26,096 nt of DNA from a virus: the IMG/VR virus record IMGVR_UViG_3300033987_000042, positions 1 through 26,096 of that record; one strand, written 5' to 3'. The notes below the pieces were generated by a model, which was not told the origin of the DNA, searched no databases, and was given only the letters and a program-made list of their open reading frames with translations. Positions 1,940 to 24,992 of this stretch are shown here, one piece after another. Within the stretch, counting starts at the first letter, position 1; each line of letters begins with the position of its first letter. A program made the translations under genes and the position numbers.

Positions 1940-3193
1940 TCACTGGAATATAATCCCGCTTGAAGTCACAGTGTTGGCCGTTTGGCTCAAAGTTCCGGTG
2001 GCACCGCTGGCGTTGATTGTGCTGCCGCTAACGATGTATATGCCATACGTCCCAGCCACTGATGCGTCGGCATCGGAGGCATTGATTGTGCTACCTCTAG
2101 AGGCAAATATGCCATAATCCCCAGCCCCTGATGCGTCGGCACCGCTGGCGTTGATTGTGCTGCCGTAATCGGCAAATATGCCATGTATCCCCGCACCTGA
2201 TGCGTTAGCTCCACTGGCGTTGATTATAGCCCCACCGAGCGCGATAATACCATATGTGCCCGCACCTGATGCGTTAGCTCCACTGGCGTTGATTGTAGAC
2301 CCAGATAGCGCGTGAATACCACTCGCGCCCGCATCTGATACGTTAGCTCCATTGGCGTTGACTGTAGCCCCCATGTACGCGTCGATGCCATATGTGCCCG
2401 CACCTGATGCGTTAGCTCCACTGGCGTTGATTGTAGACCCAAGGCTCGCCTGAATACCAATCGCGCCCGCGTTTTTCACTCCTTTGCCAGGCAAAATATT
2501 AGCGCTAGAGCCTGCACCATATGTTATAATGCCATTCCTAATGCTTGCACTGCCAGATGCGTCCATGTTGAACAATTGGCCTATAATCGGCAACGATCCT
2601 CCGTATGAAGCGCCAAAAGCAGGGTAAGACCCAACAAATCCCCTTGTCAACGCACTTCGGATTATCGTAGTTTCAGCATCGTCGCCAGAAATTGTTATCC
2701 ACGATAGGTTGATGCCGCTAACAAGGACCTGCTCCGCCATTGTGAAACCAGAAAGAAGATGTACTGTGGCTTGCGGAACTGAACCAGTAGAAATATAAAT
2801 TGGGTAGTAGAGCGCAACAAGAGCTGCGAGCGCCTCGTTGATCGTGGCATAATCACCGCCGGTCCCAACAGTAACGGTTATTGGGGAGGCAAGTTCTGTT
2901 TTCGCCCCACCAGGTGCCCATTGAAGACCTTCAGTAGTTCCAGAATTCACCTTGAGTATTTCACCGTCATTACCTCTTGGAAGACGTGTGATAGCACCTG
3001 TGCCTGTTGCTACATAAAGGTCACCTTTCATGGTTAAAATATCTACATCGAGTTTCCCGTCCAGAAGCGCTTGAAGATCAGACCCTCTTAAGGTAAGCTT
3101 GTCTGTATAAACGTTATTCCAGTTTTTGAGCGCCGTACCCAAATCCGCATCTTGGTTATTACGTGGAACAATATTTCTACCCATATCAATCAT
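1940..3193 (-). CDS. Tail fibre protein with beta-helix tandem repeats
   Basis: Fibre of about 417 residues. The N-terminus (DADLGTALKNWNNVYTDKL) and the segment MKGDLYVATGTGAITRLP are recurrent phage fibre motifs. A GTGGDYATINEAL stretch marks the start of a pectate-lyase-like beta-helix. The C-terminal third is six copies of a 23-residue unit (GSTINASGANASGAG..GI..) followed by a truncated seventh. The protein probably binds a host surface receptor or is carried on the tailspike complex. Three in-frame starts exist (TTG 3199, ATG 3193, ATG 3184); 3193 is preferred because AGGATTGGGG lies just upstream. It follows the tailspike gene by about 20 bases and precedes the DUF4376 gene. Confidence 0.8.
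   Translation of the reverse strand: MIDMGRNIVPRNNQDADLGTALKNWNNVYTDKLTLRGSDLQALLDGKLDVDILTMKGDLYVATGTGAITRLPRGNDGEILKVNSGTTEGLQWAPGGAKTELASPITVTVGTGGDYATINEALAALVALYYPIYISTGSVPQATVHLLSGFTMAEQVLVSGINLSWITISGDDAETTIIRSALTRGFVGSYPAFGASYGGSLPIIGQLFNMDASGSASIRNGIITYGAGSSANILPGKGVKNAGAIGIQASLGSTINASGANASGAGTYGIDAYMGATVNANGANVSDAGASGIHALSGSTINASGANASGAGTYGIIALGGAIINASGANASGAGIHGIFADYGSTINASGADASGAGDYGIFASRGSTINASDADASVAGTYGIYIVSGSTINASGATGTLSQTANTVTSSGIIFQ
2027..2440 (-). repeat. Six 69-bp tandem repeats inside the fibre gene
   Basis: Six consecutive in-frame units of 69 bp encode 23 residues each, with a partial seventh to about 1997. The framework G-S-T-I-N-A-S-G-A-N-A-S-G-A-G is nearly constant, while the four residues after each GI differ (DAYM, HALS, IALG, FADY, FASR, YIVS). 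At the DNA level the first three units (2234-2440) and the last three (2027-2233) form two codon-usage subfamilies, for instance TTAGCTCCACTGGCG-type against TCGGCACCGCTGGCG-type text on the plus strand. This suggests duplication within each subfamily. One unit per helical turn would stack variable residues on one face. Confidence 0.93.
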
Positions 3194-3213
3194 CCCCAAT
3201 CCTATGTTGTTTT

Positions 3214-6083: not shown

Positions 6084-9000
6084 TCATTTATTTTTTGGCG
6101 CATTAAACAAAAATCTGCGCCATTCAAATTCCTTGCCAACCTCTTCGGACATCCAGTACTCCATAAGGTATGCGAAGTTTTGTCGTAGGCCTTTAGTTGG
6201 GAGCCTCCACCAATATTCAGCTGCAGAATATGTTGCCTTAGCGAGATTTTGTAATCTTTCTGGCAATACCTTGTCAGTATCTTCGAATGCTTTATACATA
6301 TAATTAACCACATTGGCTATTGCTTGGAATCCTTGGACTGCAGGAGAGAACTGGTAATTTTCATATCCACTAAAAATACCAAAGAAATCTCTTAGTATAA
6401 TCCACGTACCCATATAATACCCAAACGTATTCTTAGCTGCCCACTTGGCCCAAGTCCACCATGCTGCCTCATCGTCCATTGGGTCTTCATCGTCTGGACC
6501 ACCACGGCGCATCCATTCCAGGGCTATTGCTGGTATCGTCAATCCCCAAAGCAGGAATGCTGCAAACCTTGCCACATCACCTGTCTTCATCAAGTGCTGT
6601 GTTTCAAGATATGTCATATTGCGTAACGTACCCATGAAAGAGTAAAACATCGAGAGCAATTGGTCGAACTCTGATCCTCTTTGTTTGGTCACAAGGTCGA
6701 TAGCACGCCCGACGTTTTGAGTTTGTCTAATAACCATATCGGCATACTCTATGGCTCTTTGTTCGCTCAAGCCCTCTTCGATCTTCATGTTATATGCTTC
6801 AAGCCAAACAGGTATGGTAACAGATGCATCCATAAACCCTATAAAGTAAAATCCAGTTTCACGAATGCGATCCATAGTACCTGCTTGTATCATCCTCTTC
6901 ATTGTTGCTGCTACGTCACGATCCCACGATTGACGCCTAAACCTCATGAATGGCGATCTATCGTGCACAAATTTAACCTTCTCGTTCCAAGATGTCGGGT
7001 CGCTATAAAATGTCATTATAGCGTGAGCCACACGAGTAGGGCCTATCATTGTGGCAGCTGAAGAGTAGCCCATAATCTGAGCCAACGCAGGCGACATCCT
7101 TAAACCTAGCCCCACCATCGTTGCACCCATCCTTGCCCTTCGCAACATTCGTTGTGTTGAAGTTAAGGCAGGGGCAAATCCCGATTGAATATGGTCTAAC
7201 CATTTATCAAATTGTTCTACAGCGTGAGTACCCATAGCTTTTGTTATTGCACTTCTAATCTCGGGATCATTTATAATGCGTCTTACGTCGCGTATTGGGC
7301 GTTTGAATGCTAAGTCTTCTGTAACATCAGCAACATGTTTGGCCAATACAGGCGTAACGCTTAACATGAGCTTAGCATCTTCACCCACAGTAGCCGCGCG
7401 CTCTTCCATGTATCCCGAGATCATTGACCTGACGCCAGATATCATCCTGATGTTATCTTCTATATTGGTATCAGTGAAGAACCTAAGATGAGATAGACGC
7501 CTATCGTATGCTATCGGATAATATCCTCCAGTTATCCATCCGTATGGCGTCATCATACCTGCAGGTTCTACTTTTTTAGGTCTTGATCCAGTGAGGTCAA
7601 CCGTTAAAGCCTCAACCTCTGGCCAGAAAGATTCAAGAAATGCTATAACATCCTTGACAAAGTTCCAATCAGCTTCGGTCATATTCTCATTTAACCAAGA
7701 TTCTATAGCTTCCTCGGTTAATCCGAAACCAGTAAGTAACCTTTCTCTACCTTCCACATTTAGGTAGTTTAGGGCTATAGCAAGCATATTGTCTCTATTC
7801 ATTCTTTCTCCAGGTATGAGTGATGTGGGAAGCCACTGTTTGTACCACTTTCGCATTTCTTTTTCTGGATAGTGCTTATTCAACATTGCTGTTATTTTTT
7901 CTGCAGCTTCAAATTGGCGTATCATGGCTTCATTGGTAGCTCTTTCTAATGGGTTATATATAGCGTCTCTGAATGCACCGAAGTCTTCAAAGTTATCAAG
8001 TATTTTTACAAGAAAATCAACTCTATTGTGGTCCATAATCCATTTATCTAATCCTTCTTTGAATTTTTGCATCAAAGTAGGATTCAACATGCCAGCTTTT
8101 TCGCCCTTATCCACAGTGATAGAGCTTATCTGATCCAATAGAGTTTGCTTTACTTTGTCGAATGTCTCTTGCCGTCCAGCCTCAAGGAATTTGTTTTCCA
8201 TTTTACCAATGTATTCTAAGGTTTTAATTGCATCTATGAGATCATAAAATTCACCTACTGTCATTTGGTCTATTGGTATACGCGCAAGAGAGTTTATTTG
8301 TTTTTCAGTGAAACCTATTTCTTCGCCCAGTGCTCTACGTTCTTCTATGTATTGCCTAAGTACATCACGAACCTCTCGTTCTTCTGGTGTCCTGTGCTTG
8401 GCATCCACAGAATCTACCAGAGCCGATATGGCATTAAGAATATCGAGAGGAAGCCCGTAGGTTTTTCTACCTCGGTTCTTGTGCTTCCTGATGAGCTGCA
8501 TACCACGCTTGACTTGTTCTCTTACCTCGATGGCCTCACGAGCAATAGCAAAGTTCTGAGCCTGGAGGTCTTTGTAGTAGACCGCCGCCTCAAGTTCACC
8601 ATCCAAAACTGCCTGCTCGTATTTACGTGCATATTTTGCTTCTTGAGCAAAGTATTTAGCAGGAGAGACTTTACTCACTGTATCACGCATAATCAAGAGC
8701 TTGGCATTAGCGCGCATCATTTTTGCTCTTTTGATTGCAGTCTCCACCATATTTTGCTTAGTGGTTCTTGCGTCAAGGATCAACGATTCAAGCACAAGCG
8801 AAGCAAGCATGTTATCATTGTGGGTCGCTTTCTCAGCGAGCTCCCTTAGTGCATCACCAAAAGCACCAGATTGAATTTCTCTGTTCAGGTTGTCTTGATA
8901 TGCGTTCCTAATTACAGCAGCTATGGGCTGGGCTGAGGCGAGTTCTTTGTACATTTCATCAATACTTGCAAAGCCAAACATTGCCACAGCGTCACTGAGA

Positions 9001-12000
9001 GATAGATTGGCGTCCTTAACCTTATACATGTGCCTGAAGACCTTGAGGCCCTCTTCACCGAATACGTCAAGTATCTCTTGCTTTGACAAACTAAATCTTG
9101 GCTTTGGTCTTCTCAGCACAGATATCATCTTGTATACAGGCTGAGACCTAATCATTGCGCTTACTTCTTTTTTGATCTGTTTGCGCCTGTCTCCGAGCGT
9201 ATCCTGCAACCTATCGACCATGGGCTTAAGGCCTTCTTCTACAAGCGACGCATGCTGCTCTTGGACGGCCTTGTTGACAAGCTTGGCTAACGTTTCTATA
9301 TCATCGGTGCTAACTCCAGCTCTTTCAGCAACTTCAATAATTCTATCAAGACGCTGTCGCTGCATAACAGCATCTGCTTCGTCCTCGAGCATTATCCATC
9401 TATCAAAGACACTTCTTACTTCGTCCGACAACTCAACACCTAAGACTGCTATATCACGATATATATCAAGTAACCAGCGTTTTATCCTCTCAAATATAGT
9501 GAGCACCTCGGGTGTGGGAGCTTTGCCTTCCATGAGATAGGTTTCAAACCCTTTGGCTATTTGTTCTTTATGCTCAGTTGTTAATGCTTCGCCCTCAGTA
9601 ACACCTACCCAATTACGAAGGACAGATAGGTCACGTAGTCCACCTTCGGACAGTGTGCCCATTGCCTCAGCACGAAGCATATGTTCGATAGCAAAGTGCC
9701 CAGTAAACTCATGCACCGCAGTTGATATATCTGCATCTTTGAAGATTCTTATGATTGCCTTGCCTGAGTCTTGGTCAAAAGAGATACCGCCCCGAGGGTC
9801 TTGCTTAAACTTAACCTCTGCTTCACCAATTTCGTCTCTTACTATTGTCAGGTTGTTCAATATATTTTGTGGATCTTCACCAGTGTATTTTGAGACAGTA
9901 AAGAGCACCCTGGCATTTATATCAGACACAGTCTCTGCTTGCTCCAAACTAAGCCCAGCATCAGATAGCTTTATCCTGATGTTTTCTTTCAGATCTCTTA
10001 GATTTTTCGCTCTTATGTCAAGGTCTTCCGTAAATGCGTCTATCTCACGCTCGAGCTCTGCTCTTATGTTTTCTACTTCGCGTTCTGTTACACCAGTTTC
10101 GCTAAATGCAACATCTTTTATCAACCCAGCATGGTGTTCTGTACCTGCAATTTTAGAAGCATATATCTCCGTAGGTATTGCCATCCTTGCGCCATCATCA
10201 CCCAAAGCCTCAACAAGTTCTCTTTCTTTTGTAGTGTCTCTTTCAGTTGACAAAACATTAGATTCATCGACGGCCTTCTTGTATTCATTCTCCACACCAA
10301 GATTAGCTGCTGCTTCTTGTGGGTCAACACCTTGGTCTTGCCAGTAGGTTTGCCACTGTCTGATTGGTATGTATACACTTTCTCTTGGTGTACCATCTAC
10401 GATGTCTCTGATGTTTCTTTCAAACGTGGATGGGGAGCGTTCTTTGGTCTTTGATTCTGCAACTATATTGTTCAGCTCTTCAAAGATTTCGCGATTCTGG
10501 TTGTATTCATCAAGGCGTGCCTTATCCTCAAGTATGTGGCCACCTATACCAAGCATAGACCACAAGCCAAAAGACCAGAATGCCATTTTTGACTCTTCTA
10601 ACGGATCAAAAAACTCTTCAGTAAAACTTGTCAATGGAAACGGTCTACCAGAAGAATACTTGAGGTATCTATTAGCAAGAGCACCAACTGAACCTTGCAA
10701 AAACTCTTCGGCTATTTCATTAACAATATCAACTGCACCCTCCATTGTTCGTTTCGTAAATATTTTCAAAAGTTGCGATCTGTTAAAAATCTTTGACGTA
10801 ACCGTAGAGGCAGGTGCCAAAAACTTATATACAGGCCTAAACCACCTGATAGGTACCCAGGAGGCAGCAAGGCTTAACTGCATTAGTTCTATTGGTGCCT
10901 GGCCAAGACTTGCAATATAAGACCACTTGGCCATATCGTAAGGATCCAGCCCCTGGCCATAGATATCTCTCTCCTGCTCCATGTCTCTATAATTACCAGA
11001 CATTTCAGAAAGCTGTATTGCGCGCAGCATTCCATATGACCAAGCCCACGACGCCGCGCGCCTGATTATTGCCTGTTCAATTGTGGTCTTGGCAGAAAGG
11101 AGAGCACCAGCACCAACAACGGCTGGGCCAGTCATTTTGCCCACTCCAGCTACGGCACTTGCACCAAGTGCAGCAAGCAGTGCCCACGTGGCTTGCCCCG
11201 CAGCTGTGGATGACCATGCATATTTTTGACCTACATATTGGGCAAGACCATGTGCAAGCTTACCAAAGAAACCTTTATCTCTATACCAATCTACGTAATC
11301 CCCATTGCGTTCATTAGCTTCTCTACTTAATTTCCATTCAAGTAATCTATCTTCAATATCTACACTACTAATTTGTGCCCATGCATCATTTATATCAGGA
11401 AACAAAGACAAAGGTATTTCTTCTTTTTGTGCTATATAGCGAGCATTCAATATCCCTTCTTCTGTAGATATGGCACCGTGTCTAAAGGTTGCATATATTT
11501 CTTTAAGCGCCTTACCTGGTCCAAAATCAACAGGAGTCCACGTTTCTGATTGGATGCTTCTCTCGTGGATGCGCTTTCTTTCTTCGGTGCCTCTTGAAAA
11601 AGCAGGTCTATCTTTGGCACGTCTTTTGTCAGATATGACAGGTATGGATGGCCTTGATAGCACCTCTTCTATTTGTTTGATATTATCAAGATCATCTCTA
11701 ACTATGCCCATCCTGTATACTTCTCTGGCCAAGATCTCTGCCATCTTTGGCGCAGAGAGTGTGAACGAATCCCAGTCGTAATCGTTTGGAGTTAAAGTTT
11801 TACCACGCTTCTCTATGTCGTTACGCACTTCAGGGAGGTTCATTATTGTGGCCATGGTATATCCATACTCATCAGCCATCTGCTGATAATGAGCAATTTG
11901 ATCTGGGCTCATATCACCAAAAGTCTTGTATGCATCGATGAGCGGCTGTTTTGGCATGTATGGTCGCTGTCTTTTTTGCTGTATGACCGAAAAAGCAGCT

Positions 12001-12089
12001 GCTATATCGTTTGCAATATCTGAGGGGATATTTACCCCCTGTATGTTCTGTTCCTCTTCTTCTTCCTCAAACCACAACTTATCTGCCAT
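6084..12089 (-). CDS. Giant internal virion (ejection) protein, T7 gp16 position, with metallopeptidase-like region
   Basis: A 2001-residue protein, much longer than T7 gp16 (about 1300). Hydrophobic Ala/Gly-rich segments lie near residues 296-350. Region 780-900 resembles the zincin-like part of large polyvalent phage proteins: HEFTGHF at 793-799, then GFETYLMEGKAPTP from 847 and WLLDIYR, with E849 as possible third ligand. Long helical stretches fill 900-1400. The C-terminus has the conserved ADMVIRQTQNVG and RGSEFDQLLSMFYSF block followed by two hydrophobic segments near 1840-1862 and 1890-1915. No lytic transglycosylase motif is seen. It probably enters the host with the genome and helps form the ejection channel. 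Its ATG overlaps the upstream TGA (TGATG). Confidence 0.8.
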   Translation of the reverse strand: MADKLWFEEEEEEQNIQGVNIPSDIANDIAAAFSVIQQKRQRPYMPKQPLIDAYKTFGDMSPDQIAHYQQMADEYGYTMATIMNLPEVRNDIEKRGKTLTPNDYDWDSFTLSAPKMAEILAREVYRMGIVRDDLDNIKQIEEVLSRPSIPVISDKRRAKDRPAFSRGTEERKRIHERSIQSETWTPVDFGPGKALKEIYATFRHGAISTEEGILNARYIAQKEEIPLSLFPDINDAWAQISSVDIEDRLLEWKLSREANERNGDYVDWYRDKGFFGKLAHGLAQYVGQKYAWSSTAAGQATWALLAALGASAVAGVGKMTGPAVVGAGALLSAKTTIEQAIIRRAASWAWSYGMLRAIQLSEMSGNYRDMEQERDIYGQGLDPYDMAKWSYIASLGQAPIELMQLSLAASWVPIRWFRPVYKFLAPASTVTSKIFNRSQLLKIFTKRTMEGAVDIVNEIAEEFLQGSVGALANRYLKYSSGRPFPLTSFTEEFFDPLEESKMAFWSFGLWSMLGIGGHILEDKARLDEYNQNREIFEELNNIVAESKTKERSPSTFERNIRDIVDGTPRESVYIPIRQWQTYWQDQGVDPQEAAANLGVENEYKKAVDESNVLSTERDTTKERELVEALGDDGARMAIPTEIYASKIAGTEHHAGLIKDVAFSETGVTEREVENIRAELEREIDAFTEDLDIRAKNLRDLKENIRIKLSDAGLSLEQAETVSDINARVLFTVSKYTGEDPQNILNNLTIVRDEIGEAEVKFKQDPRGGISFDQDSGKAIIRIFKDADISTAVHEFTGHFAIEHMLRAEAMGTLSEGGLRDLSVLRNWVGVTEGEALTTEHKEQIAKGFETYLMEGKAPTPEVLTIFERIKRWLLDIYRDIAVLGVELSDEVRSVFDRWIMLEDEADAVMQRQRLDRIIEVAERAGVSTDDIETLAKLVNKAVQEQHASLVEEGLKPMVDRLQDTLGDRRKQIKKEVSAMIRSQPVYKMISVLRRPKPRFSLSKQEILDVFGEEGLKVFRHMYKVKDANLSLSDAVAMFGFASIDEMYKELASAQPIAAVIRNAYQDNLNREIQSGAFGDALRELAEKATHNDNMLASLVLESLILDARTTKQNMVETAIKRAKMMRANAKLLIMRDTVSKVSPAKYFAQEAKYARKYEQAVLDGELEAAVYYKDLQAQNFAIAREAIEVREQVKRGMQLIRKHKNRGRKTYGLPLDILNAISALVDSVDAKHRTPEEREVRDVLRQYIEERRALGEEIGFTEKQINSLARIPIDQMTVGEFYDLIDAIKTLEYIGKMENKFLEAGRQETFDKVKQTLLDQISSITVDKGEKAGMLNPTLMQKFKEGLDKWIMDHNRVDFLVKILDNFEDFGAFRDAIYNPLERATNEAMIRQFEAAEKITAMLNKHYPEKEMRKWYKQWLPTSLIPGERMNRDNMLAIALNYLNVEGRERLLTGFGLTEEAIESWLNENMTEADWNFVKDVIAFLESFWPEVEALTVDLTGSRPKKVEPAGMMTPYGWITGGYYPIAYDRRLSHLRFFTDTNIEDNIRMISGVRSMISGYMEERAATVGEDAKLMLSVTPVLAKHVADVTEDLAFKRPIRDVRRIINDPEIRSAITKAMGTHAVEQFDKWLDHIQSGFAPALTSTQRMLRRARMGATMVGLGLRMSPALAQIMGYSSAATMIGPTRVAHAIMTFYSDPTSWNEKVKFVHDRSPFMRFRRQSWDRDVAATMKRMIQAGTMDRIRETGFYFIGFMDASVTIPVWLEAYNMKIEEGLSEQRAIEYADMVIRQTQNVGRAIDLVTKQRGSEFDQLLSMFYSFMGTLRNMTYLETQHLMKTGDVARFAAFLLWGLTIPAIALEWMRRGGPDDEDPMDDEAAWWTWAKWAAKNTFGYYMGTWIILRDFFGIFSGYENYQFSPAVQGFQAIANVVNYMYKAFEDTDKVLPERLQNLAKATYSAAEYWWRLPTKGLRQNFAYLMEYWMSEEVGKEFEWRRFLFNAPKNK

Positions 12090-22604: not shown

Positions 22605-24992
22605 TTAATTATTTACTAGCACGGCATGCGGCCCTCCACCAATGGACCGAGACCTGCCGCCTGATACAAAAAATCTATCACCATTAACACCTAGTCTTTT
22701 AACTACAGGGTAAGCAAATGTTAAAGCCAATGCATCAGCTCTGTCAGGGCTAGGCAACTTACGCACTTTCTTTATGGCCTGCTTCGACTCGAGTTTCATC
22801 TTACCAGTACCCCTGTGGTAGTCATAGTACGGTGTTACCAAGTCATCGCGCAGTTTTCTATCGTCAGGTATAGCCCCACCACTTTTGAGCCATTCCTTCA
22901 TCTCATACCACATCTCCATACGCTTGTTTGCAAGCTCTGGCCTGCTAGATGCTGCCGAGCTATTAACTCCAACGACCTTATCACTCATACCCATGCGCCT
23001 CAACTGGTCGACCACACCTGCCCCTACGCCTGTAACATCTACAAATATTTTATCAGCATTCCTTTCGATAGCAAATCTATATATTTTGTCAGCGTATTCA
23101 AGAGTATCTATATCAGTGCCTTCCCATAGTTTCTCTGAGTATAAACCTTGTCGCAAAAATAAACAACTACTATCGTCACCAAAGTAACTCACGTCAGCCC
23201 CAAGTATCACAGGAGCAAAGTTATACTCACTATCATGCAAGAACCTATGTATTGCTGCTTCGACCAACTCAAGTGGTATAAACTGCTGTACCGAGGCGCT
23301 AGGGAACTCACCAAGCACTCTGACACGGTATTGGTCACTATCCTCGCCATATTCCTGCTTCATTAGCTCTATATATTCTTTAGTTACGAGCGGTGAGTCA
23401 AGACACGAGAAAGTATATGTATCCCACAGATGACGGTTAGAGTTGAATGCCTCATAGAAGTATCCAGTTACCATTGTAGGGTTACCTGTCATCACAACTC
23501 TGGCGTTGCTCGTGGTAAGTGTGCCTCTCATAACCTCAAATATCTCGTCAGGTACTTCGGCGGCCTCGTCTATGAGAAACATGAGGTTCTTAGCATGGAA
23601 CCCCTGCAACGCACTTGGCTGATCGCGGCGTGCTGTGCGAGCCGCGGCGTACTGCTTCTTACCACATCCTTCTATGGTGACACGGTCCTTAGTGACAATA
23701 GTTGCGTCGGCCATGTCCTTGGGCATCTTCATACGCCACGAGTCTATTTCTGACCACAACACGTCATTGAGCTGGTGGGCTGATGGTGCTGTACATGGTA
23801 TTTCAACGTCTAATCTTGTCCAGAGGAACCAAAGAAGTGACCATGCTAGCGTTGAAGTATTATGTGTTGGTACAAAGTCTTCGCCAGCGAGGTACATGTG
23901 GTCTGGTGCTTCTACCTCAATGCACATACTCTCTTTCATGCCAACTTCTTCTATACGATCAATCCAGCGCTTGAGATATCTGTCTTGGACAACATTGTGC
24001 AAATTCTTTTGTTTTCTACTGACGTAACCCAATTTTGTACCAGGCCTGAAACGGATAGTTACATTGTAGGCATCGTTACACTGGACTTTGTAGCCATCTT
24101 CATCAATATAATGTGCTTTTTTTGTTGCTTTTTGTGCTATAGCAATGCCACCAAGTGATCTAACCAACCACACAATATCATCTCTAAGCCTGGGGCTTGT
24201 GGTTGTGTATACACACACACCTCTTTTATCGATATACCCATCAGTGTCAATCAAACCACGTAGAAGCTCAAAACGATCTTCTATAGAAGAGTATTTATAT
24301 ATGTCAGGAATAAACTTTTCGTATGAATAGCAATTAAGTAATCCAATTTCACGCAAATATTTAGAACATCCACGACTGGTAATTTTAGTATTGTCAATGA
24401 ACGAAACATCGATGCCTAATTCTTTGAAGCGTTCATATATTTCAATCTCTGGTTTTTTGATTATACCGCTGCCGCGACATCCATCACCAATCCAGCAACC
24501 AACGAAATACGGATGGAGTGGTAACTCTTTCTTCTTACGGAATGCCACAGGCTCATATGGGGGTATCTCAATCTGTCTTGCCATGGAGCGACCATTACTT
24601 CGTTTACACAGTGGGATCAACTCTTCAGTCGTTGCAATACGCCAACCACGTGAATATCGTCTTTCTTTACGAGTCTTGACCTTCCACAAGTGGTCGCCAG
24701 ATGCTTCTAACGAGCTACCATCGGTAAAAATTACTTTGTATATTTTTAACTTGCCCTGTGGATAAATAGCTTTTATTCTAGTTGGTGAGCCATCAAGGCC
24801 AAATACATCGTCACCAACTTTAAGATCACCCCAGAATCGTGGTCCATCTGGTGTCATGGTAATTGTGTCCATTGTTCCCGCTTTACCGACACCATGTCCG
24901 CTCTTCACAGCAACATGTGCATTGTCCTTTGCTATGGCTCTCAAGAGCTTTTCCTGCTGATGTGTAGGCGTGGCACCAAAAATCTCTCGCAC
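22605..24992 (-). CDS. terL: Terminase large subunit, interrupted by an intein
   Basis: Packaging motor ATPase and nuclease. The P-loop SGHGVGK at residues 31-37 is cut by the intein before its Thr (residue 379). After the intein come Walker B FLIDEA, the coupling motif VVMTGNPT, and nuclease acids in LGADVSYFGDDSS, FVDVTGVGAG and SPDRADALALTF. Without the intein the extein is about 454 residues, normal for TerL. The GTG at 24992 is the only ordinary start in frame, but the frame is open to 25061 and encodes a conserved-looking FAAYRKDPVLF just before it. True translation therefore probably begins further upstream, perhaps at an ATT at 25049 that overlaps the terS stop. It precedes the small Pro-rich gene and portal. 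Confidence 0.93.
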   Translation of the reverse strand: MREIFGATPTHQQEKLLRAIAKDNAHVAVKSGHGVGKAGTMDTITMTPDGPRFWGDLKVGDDVFGLDGSPTRIKAIYPQGKLKIYKVIFTDGSSLEASGDHLWKVKTRKERRYSRGWRIATTEELIPLCKRSNGRSMARQIEIPPYEPVAFRKKKELPLHPYFVGCWIGDGCRGSGIIKKPEIEIYERFKELGIDVSFIDNTKITSRGCSKYLREIGLLNCYSYEKFIPDIYKYSSIEDRFELLRGLIDTDGYIDKRGVCVYTTTSPRLRDDIVWLVRSLGGIAIAQKATKKAHYIDEDGYKVQCNDAYNVTIRFRPGTKLGYVSRKQKNLHNVVQDRYLKRWIDRIEEVGMKESMCIEVEAPDHMYLAGEDFVPTHNTSTLAWSLLWFLWTRLDVEIPCTAPSAHQLNDVLWSEIDSWRMKMPKDMADATIVTKDRVTIEGCGKKQYAAARTARRDQPSALQGFHAKNLMFLIDEAAEVPDEIFEVMRGTLTTSNARVVMTGNPTMVTGYFYEAFNSNRHLWDTYTFSCLDSPLVTKEYIELMKQEYGEDSDQYRVRVLGEFPSASVQQFIPLELVEAAIHRFLHDSEYNFAPVILGADVSYFGDDSSCLFLRQGLYSEKLWEGTDIDTLEYADKIYRFAIERNADKIFVDVTGVGAGVVDQLRRMGMSDKVVGVNSSAASSRPELANKRMEMWYEMKEWLKSGGAIPDDRKLRDDLVTPYYDYHRGTGKMKLESKQAIKKVRKLPSPDRADALALTFAYPVVKRLGVNGDRFFVSGGRSRSIGGGPHAVLVNN
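23859..24881 (-). mobile_element. Intein with LAGLIDADG endonuclease, class 3 pattern
   Basis: The insert spans residues 38-378 (341 residues) between GVGK and TSTLAW of the terminase P-loop. Residue 1 is Ala rather than Cys or Ser. Block A is present (GDLKVGDDVFGLDG). Block B is LEASGDHLWKV, with H101 and W103. Block F is SMCIEVEAPDHMYLAG, with C357 where most inteins have Asp. Block G is FVPTHN, with T376, ending at N378, and Thr is the +1 residue. Trp, Cys and Thr at these places define class 3 inteins. Two endonuclease motifs are present, YFVGCWIGDG (D170) and LLRGLIDTDG (D251), and look intact. The element should excise after translation to rebuild the ATP-binding loop. Confidence 0.9.

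Follow-up and report, generated by a model that had tools for sequence, protein, structure and literature searches.

The window analysed here, that is, the whole stretch of 26,096 nucleotides, is a 26 kb linear fragment of viral DNA with a GC content of 0.43, in which a search for end repeats found none. Both homology and the arrangement of the genes point to a podovirus. The portal protein matched Head-tail_con (PF12236) with an E value of 5e-122, and podovirus-type tail proteins and a major head protein of phrog_212 were also present. The closest portals were those of Cobetia phage Carin1, Sodalis phiSG1 and E. coli phiV10, all at about 35–36% identity, and portal relatives belonged to phages of many, mostly proteobacterial, hosts. 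When genome contigs were searched with the large terminase (TerL) for a host, a single match was obtained, at 33%, in Duodenibacillus. A mycobacterial host appears unlikely.

Two further genes of the window, both on the minus strand, were observed. An open reading frame at 1940–3199 contains repeats of about 25 residues (GSTINASGANASGAG...) and gave a borderline Beta_helix match; it is likely to encode a tail fibre or spike. The gene at 6084–12089 encodes a virion protein of 2001 aa that carries an LPD22 (large polyvalent protein) domain and is probably ejected along with the DNA.

The terL gene occupies positions 22605..24992, and all of its features described below lie on the minus strand. 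It begins with a GTG start and encodes a precursor of 795 aa, intein included, with matches to PHROG families of the terminase large subunit. The N-extein (24882..24992) comprises 37 codons and ends at the P-loop SGHGVGK, the codon of Lys37 being located at 24882–24884. It is followed by a class 3 intein of 341 aa with a LAGLIDADG homing endonuclease (23859..24881; precursor residues 38–378), the position given in the initial annotation being exact. The C-extein (22605..23858) contains the remaining part of TerL, with the Walker B motif FLIDEAAE, the coupling motif TGNPT and the nuclease domain. Its first residue, the +1 Thr38 of TerL (23856..23858), is the Thr of the P-loop and, at the same time, the putative nucleophile of the C-extein.

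The P-loop SGHGVGK|T is thus split between Lys37 and Thr38, and intein-free homologues with 95–96% identity are uninterrupted at this point. Their reading through the site bears out the initial annotation, in which the insertion had been placed exactly between the Lys and the Thr of the P-loop. The position, between the invariant Walker A Lys and Thr/Ser of a large terminase, is that of a TerL1-a type site, defined as lying between the P-loop Lys and Thr (PMC5050341). The insert is in frame and absent from homologues, has a HINT fold and ends in the C-terminal junction THN|T, as an intein does. Judged from these sequence features, the reading of the TerL insert as an intein is far beyond chance. 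Because the P-loop is interrupted, ATPase activity should depend on splicing, and it is fair to infer that packaging by TerL depends on it wholly.

Class 3 inteins need no nucleophile at residue 1 and are recognised by Trp at B:12, Cys at F:4 and Thr at G:5, together with Ser or Thr at +1; Cys F:4 is essential (PMC5222942). All of the sequence features in this list were found in the window intein. Residue 1 is Ala (24879..24881; Gly in the relatives L002–L004), which is not a nucleophile. Trp66 (24684..24686) stands at B:12, Cys320 (23922..23924), the presumed initiating nucleophile, at F:4 and Thr339 (23865..23867) at G:5, and the +1 residue is Thr38. These three residues of the W-C-T set correspond to W103, C357 and T376 in precursor numbering. 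Block B also contains His64 at B:10 (24690..24692), located by phmmer alignment, and block G ends in His340-Asn341 (23859..23864).

When solved structures were searched with phmmer, the class 3 DnaB inteins 6bs8, 6rix and 6riy were obtained first, with E values from 2e-12 to 2e-11, and the two ends of the query fell on the two ends of each of these chains. Residues H64, W66, C320 and T339 were aligned with His65, Trp67, Cys124 and Thr143, respectively, of MchDnaB1, which are the catalytic residues of that intein (PMC7664689). Since C320 falls on Cys124 of MchDnaB1 (6rix), it lies in block F. The leading Ala and the set W103, C357 and T376, as proposed initially, were therefore correctly positioned by alignment to solved class 3 inteins, with C357 within block F and not outside it. 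At E <= 0.001, no match to Pfam Intein_splicing (PF14890) was found in the window; this reflects the sensitivity limit of that profile, as phmmer against the PDB and Foldseek did match.

A class 2-like route, in which Thr38 (+1) would attack the N-terminal junction directly and Cys320 would not be the initiating nucleophile, was also weighed. The residue-1 nucleophile is missing here, as it is in class 2 inteins, but the full W-C-T set sits at class 3 positions and the best matches are biochemically proven class 3 inteins. Moreover, C320 is kept in every near relative (among wider relatives, a lineage with Ser, described below, is the sole exception), and loss of Cys F:4 abolished splicing in the class 3 inteins tested (PMC5222942). 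This route is therefore regarded as highly improbable. Membership of class 2 itself, which combines the lack of a residue-1 nucleophile with the lack of the class 3 triplet, was rejected, the W-C-T triplet being present.

The first LAGLIDADG motif of the intein, HPYFVGCWIGDG, is located at 24480..24515 and contains Asp133, while the second, ELLRGLIDTDGYI, is located at 24231..24269, contains Asp212/Asp214 and is covered by Pfam Hom_end and LAGLIDADG_3, both of which matched above their cut-off. The two aspartates D133 and D214 are present in the motifs WIGDG and LIDTDG, respectively, so the arrangement is that of a two-motif LAGLIDADG enzyme with acidic catalytic residues. Both motifs had been described as intact from the start, and the presence of the catalytic Asp residues confirms this. 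An AlphaFold model of the intein, built on an alignment of 23 inteins (that of the window and those of IMG/VR loci), reached a pLDDT of 90.6 and a pTM of 0.90 and consists of a HINT domain and a two-motif LAGLIDADG nuclease. In a Foldseek search of the PDB, PI-SceI and other full-length inteins bearing a homing endonuclease ranked first, giving the PI-SceI fold. The class 3 structures 6bs8 and 6rix were the best matches covering the splicing domain only (TM 0.79–0.85 by target length). Among predicted viral proteins, the best matches were many phage terminases and helicases.

The same intein was found in the IMG/VR loci L001–L005 at 84–97% identity, and the frames of the intein-bearing relatives were open, without stops. 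TerL without the intein was found at 95–96% identity on four contigs (L008–L011), where the site reads GHGCGK-SATL or GHGVGK-TSCL and where a search for the intein gave no match. As the contigs in general are fragments, a second intact terL may be located elsewhere in the genome, which was counted against the preferred explanation given below. The portals of intein-bearing and intein-free contigs were 95–98% identical, which places both states in one phage group, and a single metagenome (3300033999) contained both, L004 with the intein and L009 without it.

Across five copies, the C-terminal splicing part (residues 301–341) had a dN of 0, with dS mostly > 0.5. The dN/dS values were 0.07–0.13 for the endonuclease part and 0.015–0.07 for the C-extein. 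The splicing and nuclease functions thus both appear to be selected for. Taken with the presence/absence pattern, this purifying selection makes it likely, as far as sequence comparison can tell, that the TerL intein is active in both splicing and homing. The tree of near relatives fits recent homing and vertical inheritance with losses alike.

In one alternative, the intein would still splice and its endonuclease would be a decaying passenger unable to home, the present pattern being old inheritance with losses. The near relatives do stay together in the intein tree, as this would predict, but both catalytic Asp residues are kept, dN/dS of the endonuclease is as low as given above, and intein-plus and intein-minus terL occur in one group of 95% identical phages and in one sample. 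Loss of homing is considered unlikely, though it is the strongest of the competing explanations. A second alternative is a domesticated switch: conditional (e.g. redox-dependent) splicing would time the activation of TerL, and this rather than homing would maintain the intein. Insertion in the P-loop ties ATPase activity to splicing, and Msm DnaBi1, likewise a P-loop intein of class 3, is under redox control via a Cys48-Cys118 disulfide (PMC6195587). However, Cys48 of DnaBi1 is not matched by a Cys in the window intein, where it aligns with the segment KIYKV; the absence of the intein from 95–96% identical relatives means that it is dispensable; and the conserved endonuclease points to mobility. 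Such a regulatory role is very unlikely.

Within the near clade, the first eight residues of the intein (window 24858–24881) differ as a block: AGTMDTIT was found in the window and L001 and G[HV]PLELVT in L002–L004, with the rest 84–97% identical. Residue 1 is accordingly Ala in two of the five near copies and Gly in three. From these sequences, block A looks to have been swapped as a unit. The first position, which can be Ala or Gly and belongs to the replaced stretch, is therefore not that of a conserved nucleophile. Replacement of these residues while the C-terminal 41 residues stayed identical amounts to a natural experiment, which supports the class 3 mechanism. The block A sequences are nevertheless unusual across the near clade, and this was counted against the preferred explanation.

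That explanation, held with high confidence, is a full-length class 3 intein that bears a homing endonuclease and interrupts the P-loop of the large terminase of a podovirus, and for which splicing and homing are deduced. By analogy with other class 3 inteins, Cys320 would attack the bond between Lys37 and Ala1, giving a thioester branch, the N-extein would then pass to Thr38 (+1), and Asn341 would cyclise, after which an O-N acyl shift would rejoin ...GVGK-TSTL... and leave an intact Walker A motif. The LAGLIDADG domain would cut intein-free terL alleles at the insertion site, and repair would copy the intein in; as a selfish element, it could thereby persist in a motif that is both essential and conserved.

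The intein-free alleles also differ at the site itself. The TerLs at L008:832-2193, L009:79-1440 and L010:3001-4362 have the unusual P-loop GHGCGKS, with differences clustered at the intein site: they read GHGCGK|SATLSWA versus GHGVGK|TSTLAWS in the window. In L008, 5 of the 20 TerL differences from the window fall within 14 residues at the site (binomial p 3e-4), and in L010 this applies to 5 of 23 within the same stretch (binomial p 6e-4); the value for L011 was 2 of 20 (p 0.13). Among intein-bearing alleles, the protein is identical over 14 residues around the site, with variation at synonymous positions. It is conceivable, although doubtful, that the intein is still competing with its intein-free sister phages for this essential ATP-binding motif, and that the recoded P-loop may protect them from cleavage. 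The same positions vary in more distant intein-free TerLs, so the reading as a resistant allele is only a possibility. If it were true, a homing nuclease would be the force behind changes in a catalytic motif that normally stays frozen.

Beyond the near clade, the same TerL site is occupied in L006 (SGHGIGK|S), a 45% relative, and in L045 (SGHGTGK|S). Both inteins are of class 3 and carry an endonuclease, and in the intein tree no group outside the near clade is closer: the window clade joins them there with full support (100/99) and does not join any mycobacteriophage intein. They differ from the window intein in being only 43–46% identical to it. The L006 contig lacks the window's portal and therefore represents another phage group.

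The initial annotation had suggested that an intein of this kind outside mycobacteriophages would extend the range of class 3. This does not hold, as inteins with the W-C-T set are found in phages of many hosts and 1,701 had been catalogued by 2020. Similar inteins were found by tblastn in 764 phage records, from which a sample of 17 named records was examined for class. The W-C-T set was present in all 17, nearly always in an insert after the GK of a P-loop and before T/S. Their hosts were Klebsiella, Proteus, Salmonella, Pseudomonas, Vibrio, Brevundimonas, Erythrobacter, Enterococcus, Eggerthella, Parabacteroides, Bacteroides, Porphyromonas, Gordonia, Mycobacterium and the archaeon Methanosarcina. 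Class 3 inteins being common in phage P-loops, arguments that treat them as a mycobacterial speciality should be dropped. According to papers that cite them, Tori and Perler (2011) defined class 3 and proposed a phage origin for it. In the 2020 study, 82.5% of the 1,701 class 3 inteins in nr had LAGLIDADG motifs (PMC7891396).

Annotation as terminase was found for the intein genes of, among others, N1M2, MetMV, B124-14, phage005b, YungMoney and SPLA3, the last of which is called a helicase in the annotation of its near relatives. The inteins of Klebsiella N1M2, Methanosarcina MetMV, Bacteroides B124-14, Porphyromonas phage005b and Gordonia YungMoney resemble the window intein in the W-C-T set and in the ...GK|T/S site but belong to other terminase lineages and are 30–34% identical to it. 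The PHROGs terminase families phrog_36964 and phrog_19299 have profiles that align across the window intein.

The mycobacterial DnaB P-loop inteins Msm DnaBi1 (6bs8) and MchDnaB1 (6rix) share with it the W-C-T set, Ala1, the HxW of block B, VPTHN at block G and a P-loop site before Ser/Thr. They are, however, mini-inteins without an endonuclease, located in a helicase with +1 Ser, and DnaBi1 has the redox partner Cys48, whereas the window intein has 341 aa, an endonuclease, a position in TerL and +1 Thr.

In mycobacteriophages, represented here by the records of Phrappuccino, Pinkcreek and LittleE, class 3 inteins were reported in TerL, with TerL inteins exactly at Lys|Thr, and splicing and cutting were shown for representatives (Kelley et al. 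2016; PMC5050341). Class 3 was assigned there to TerL1-c, -d and -e, whereas TerL1-a, which has the identical Lys|Thr position, is given without a stated class (PMC5050341). The LittleE TerL intein, as read from its record, is of class 3 like that of the window, but LittleE and Phrappuccino are about 29–34% identical to the window intein and represent a different phage type.

The window intein is thus a sound new example of a kind of insert that is already recorded by the thousand and that occurs in phages of many unrelated hosts. Its value lies in a clean natural set for testing class 3 homing outside mycobacteriophages: close relatives among the phages either carry or lack the insert, the nuclease is intact, and residue 1 has changed naturally.

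A discrepancy in annotation was noted in the phage record pairs H2/H3, H9/H10, H11/H12 and H58/H59, in which RefSeq gives 'DarB-like antirestriction' versus terminase or helicase in GenBank. The label may track the shared intein rather than the host protein.

Three further IMG/VR loci from three metagenomes (L049:1157-2164, L074:224-1231 and L075:1495-2484) carry TerL P-loop inteins in which Ser replaces the block F Cys. Trp B:12 and Thr G:5 are kept (W conservation in L040–L071 is partly built in, as the search patterns included GDHLW; that of C and T is not), and a conserved Cys is located seven residues upstream of the Ser. Residue 1 is Leu, Leu and Ser, respectively, +1 is Thr, and the frames are open. 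These inteins are 69–82% identical to L049 and form one clade (100/99). Class 3 was defined in the 2020 catalogue by Cys at the block F position (PMC7891396), and only Cys was seen there by Kelley et al. (PMC5050341). A serine-initiated class 3 variant or a relocated nucleophile is possible for this lineage; either would be a real novelty, and the lineage may prove more interesting than the window intein.
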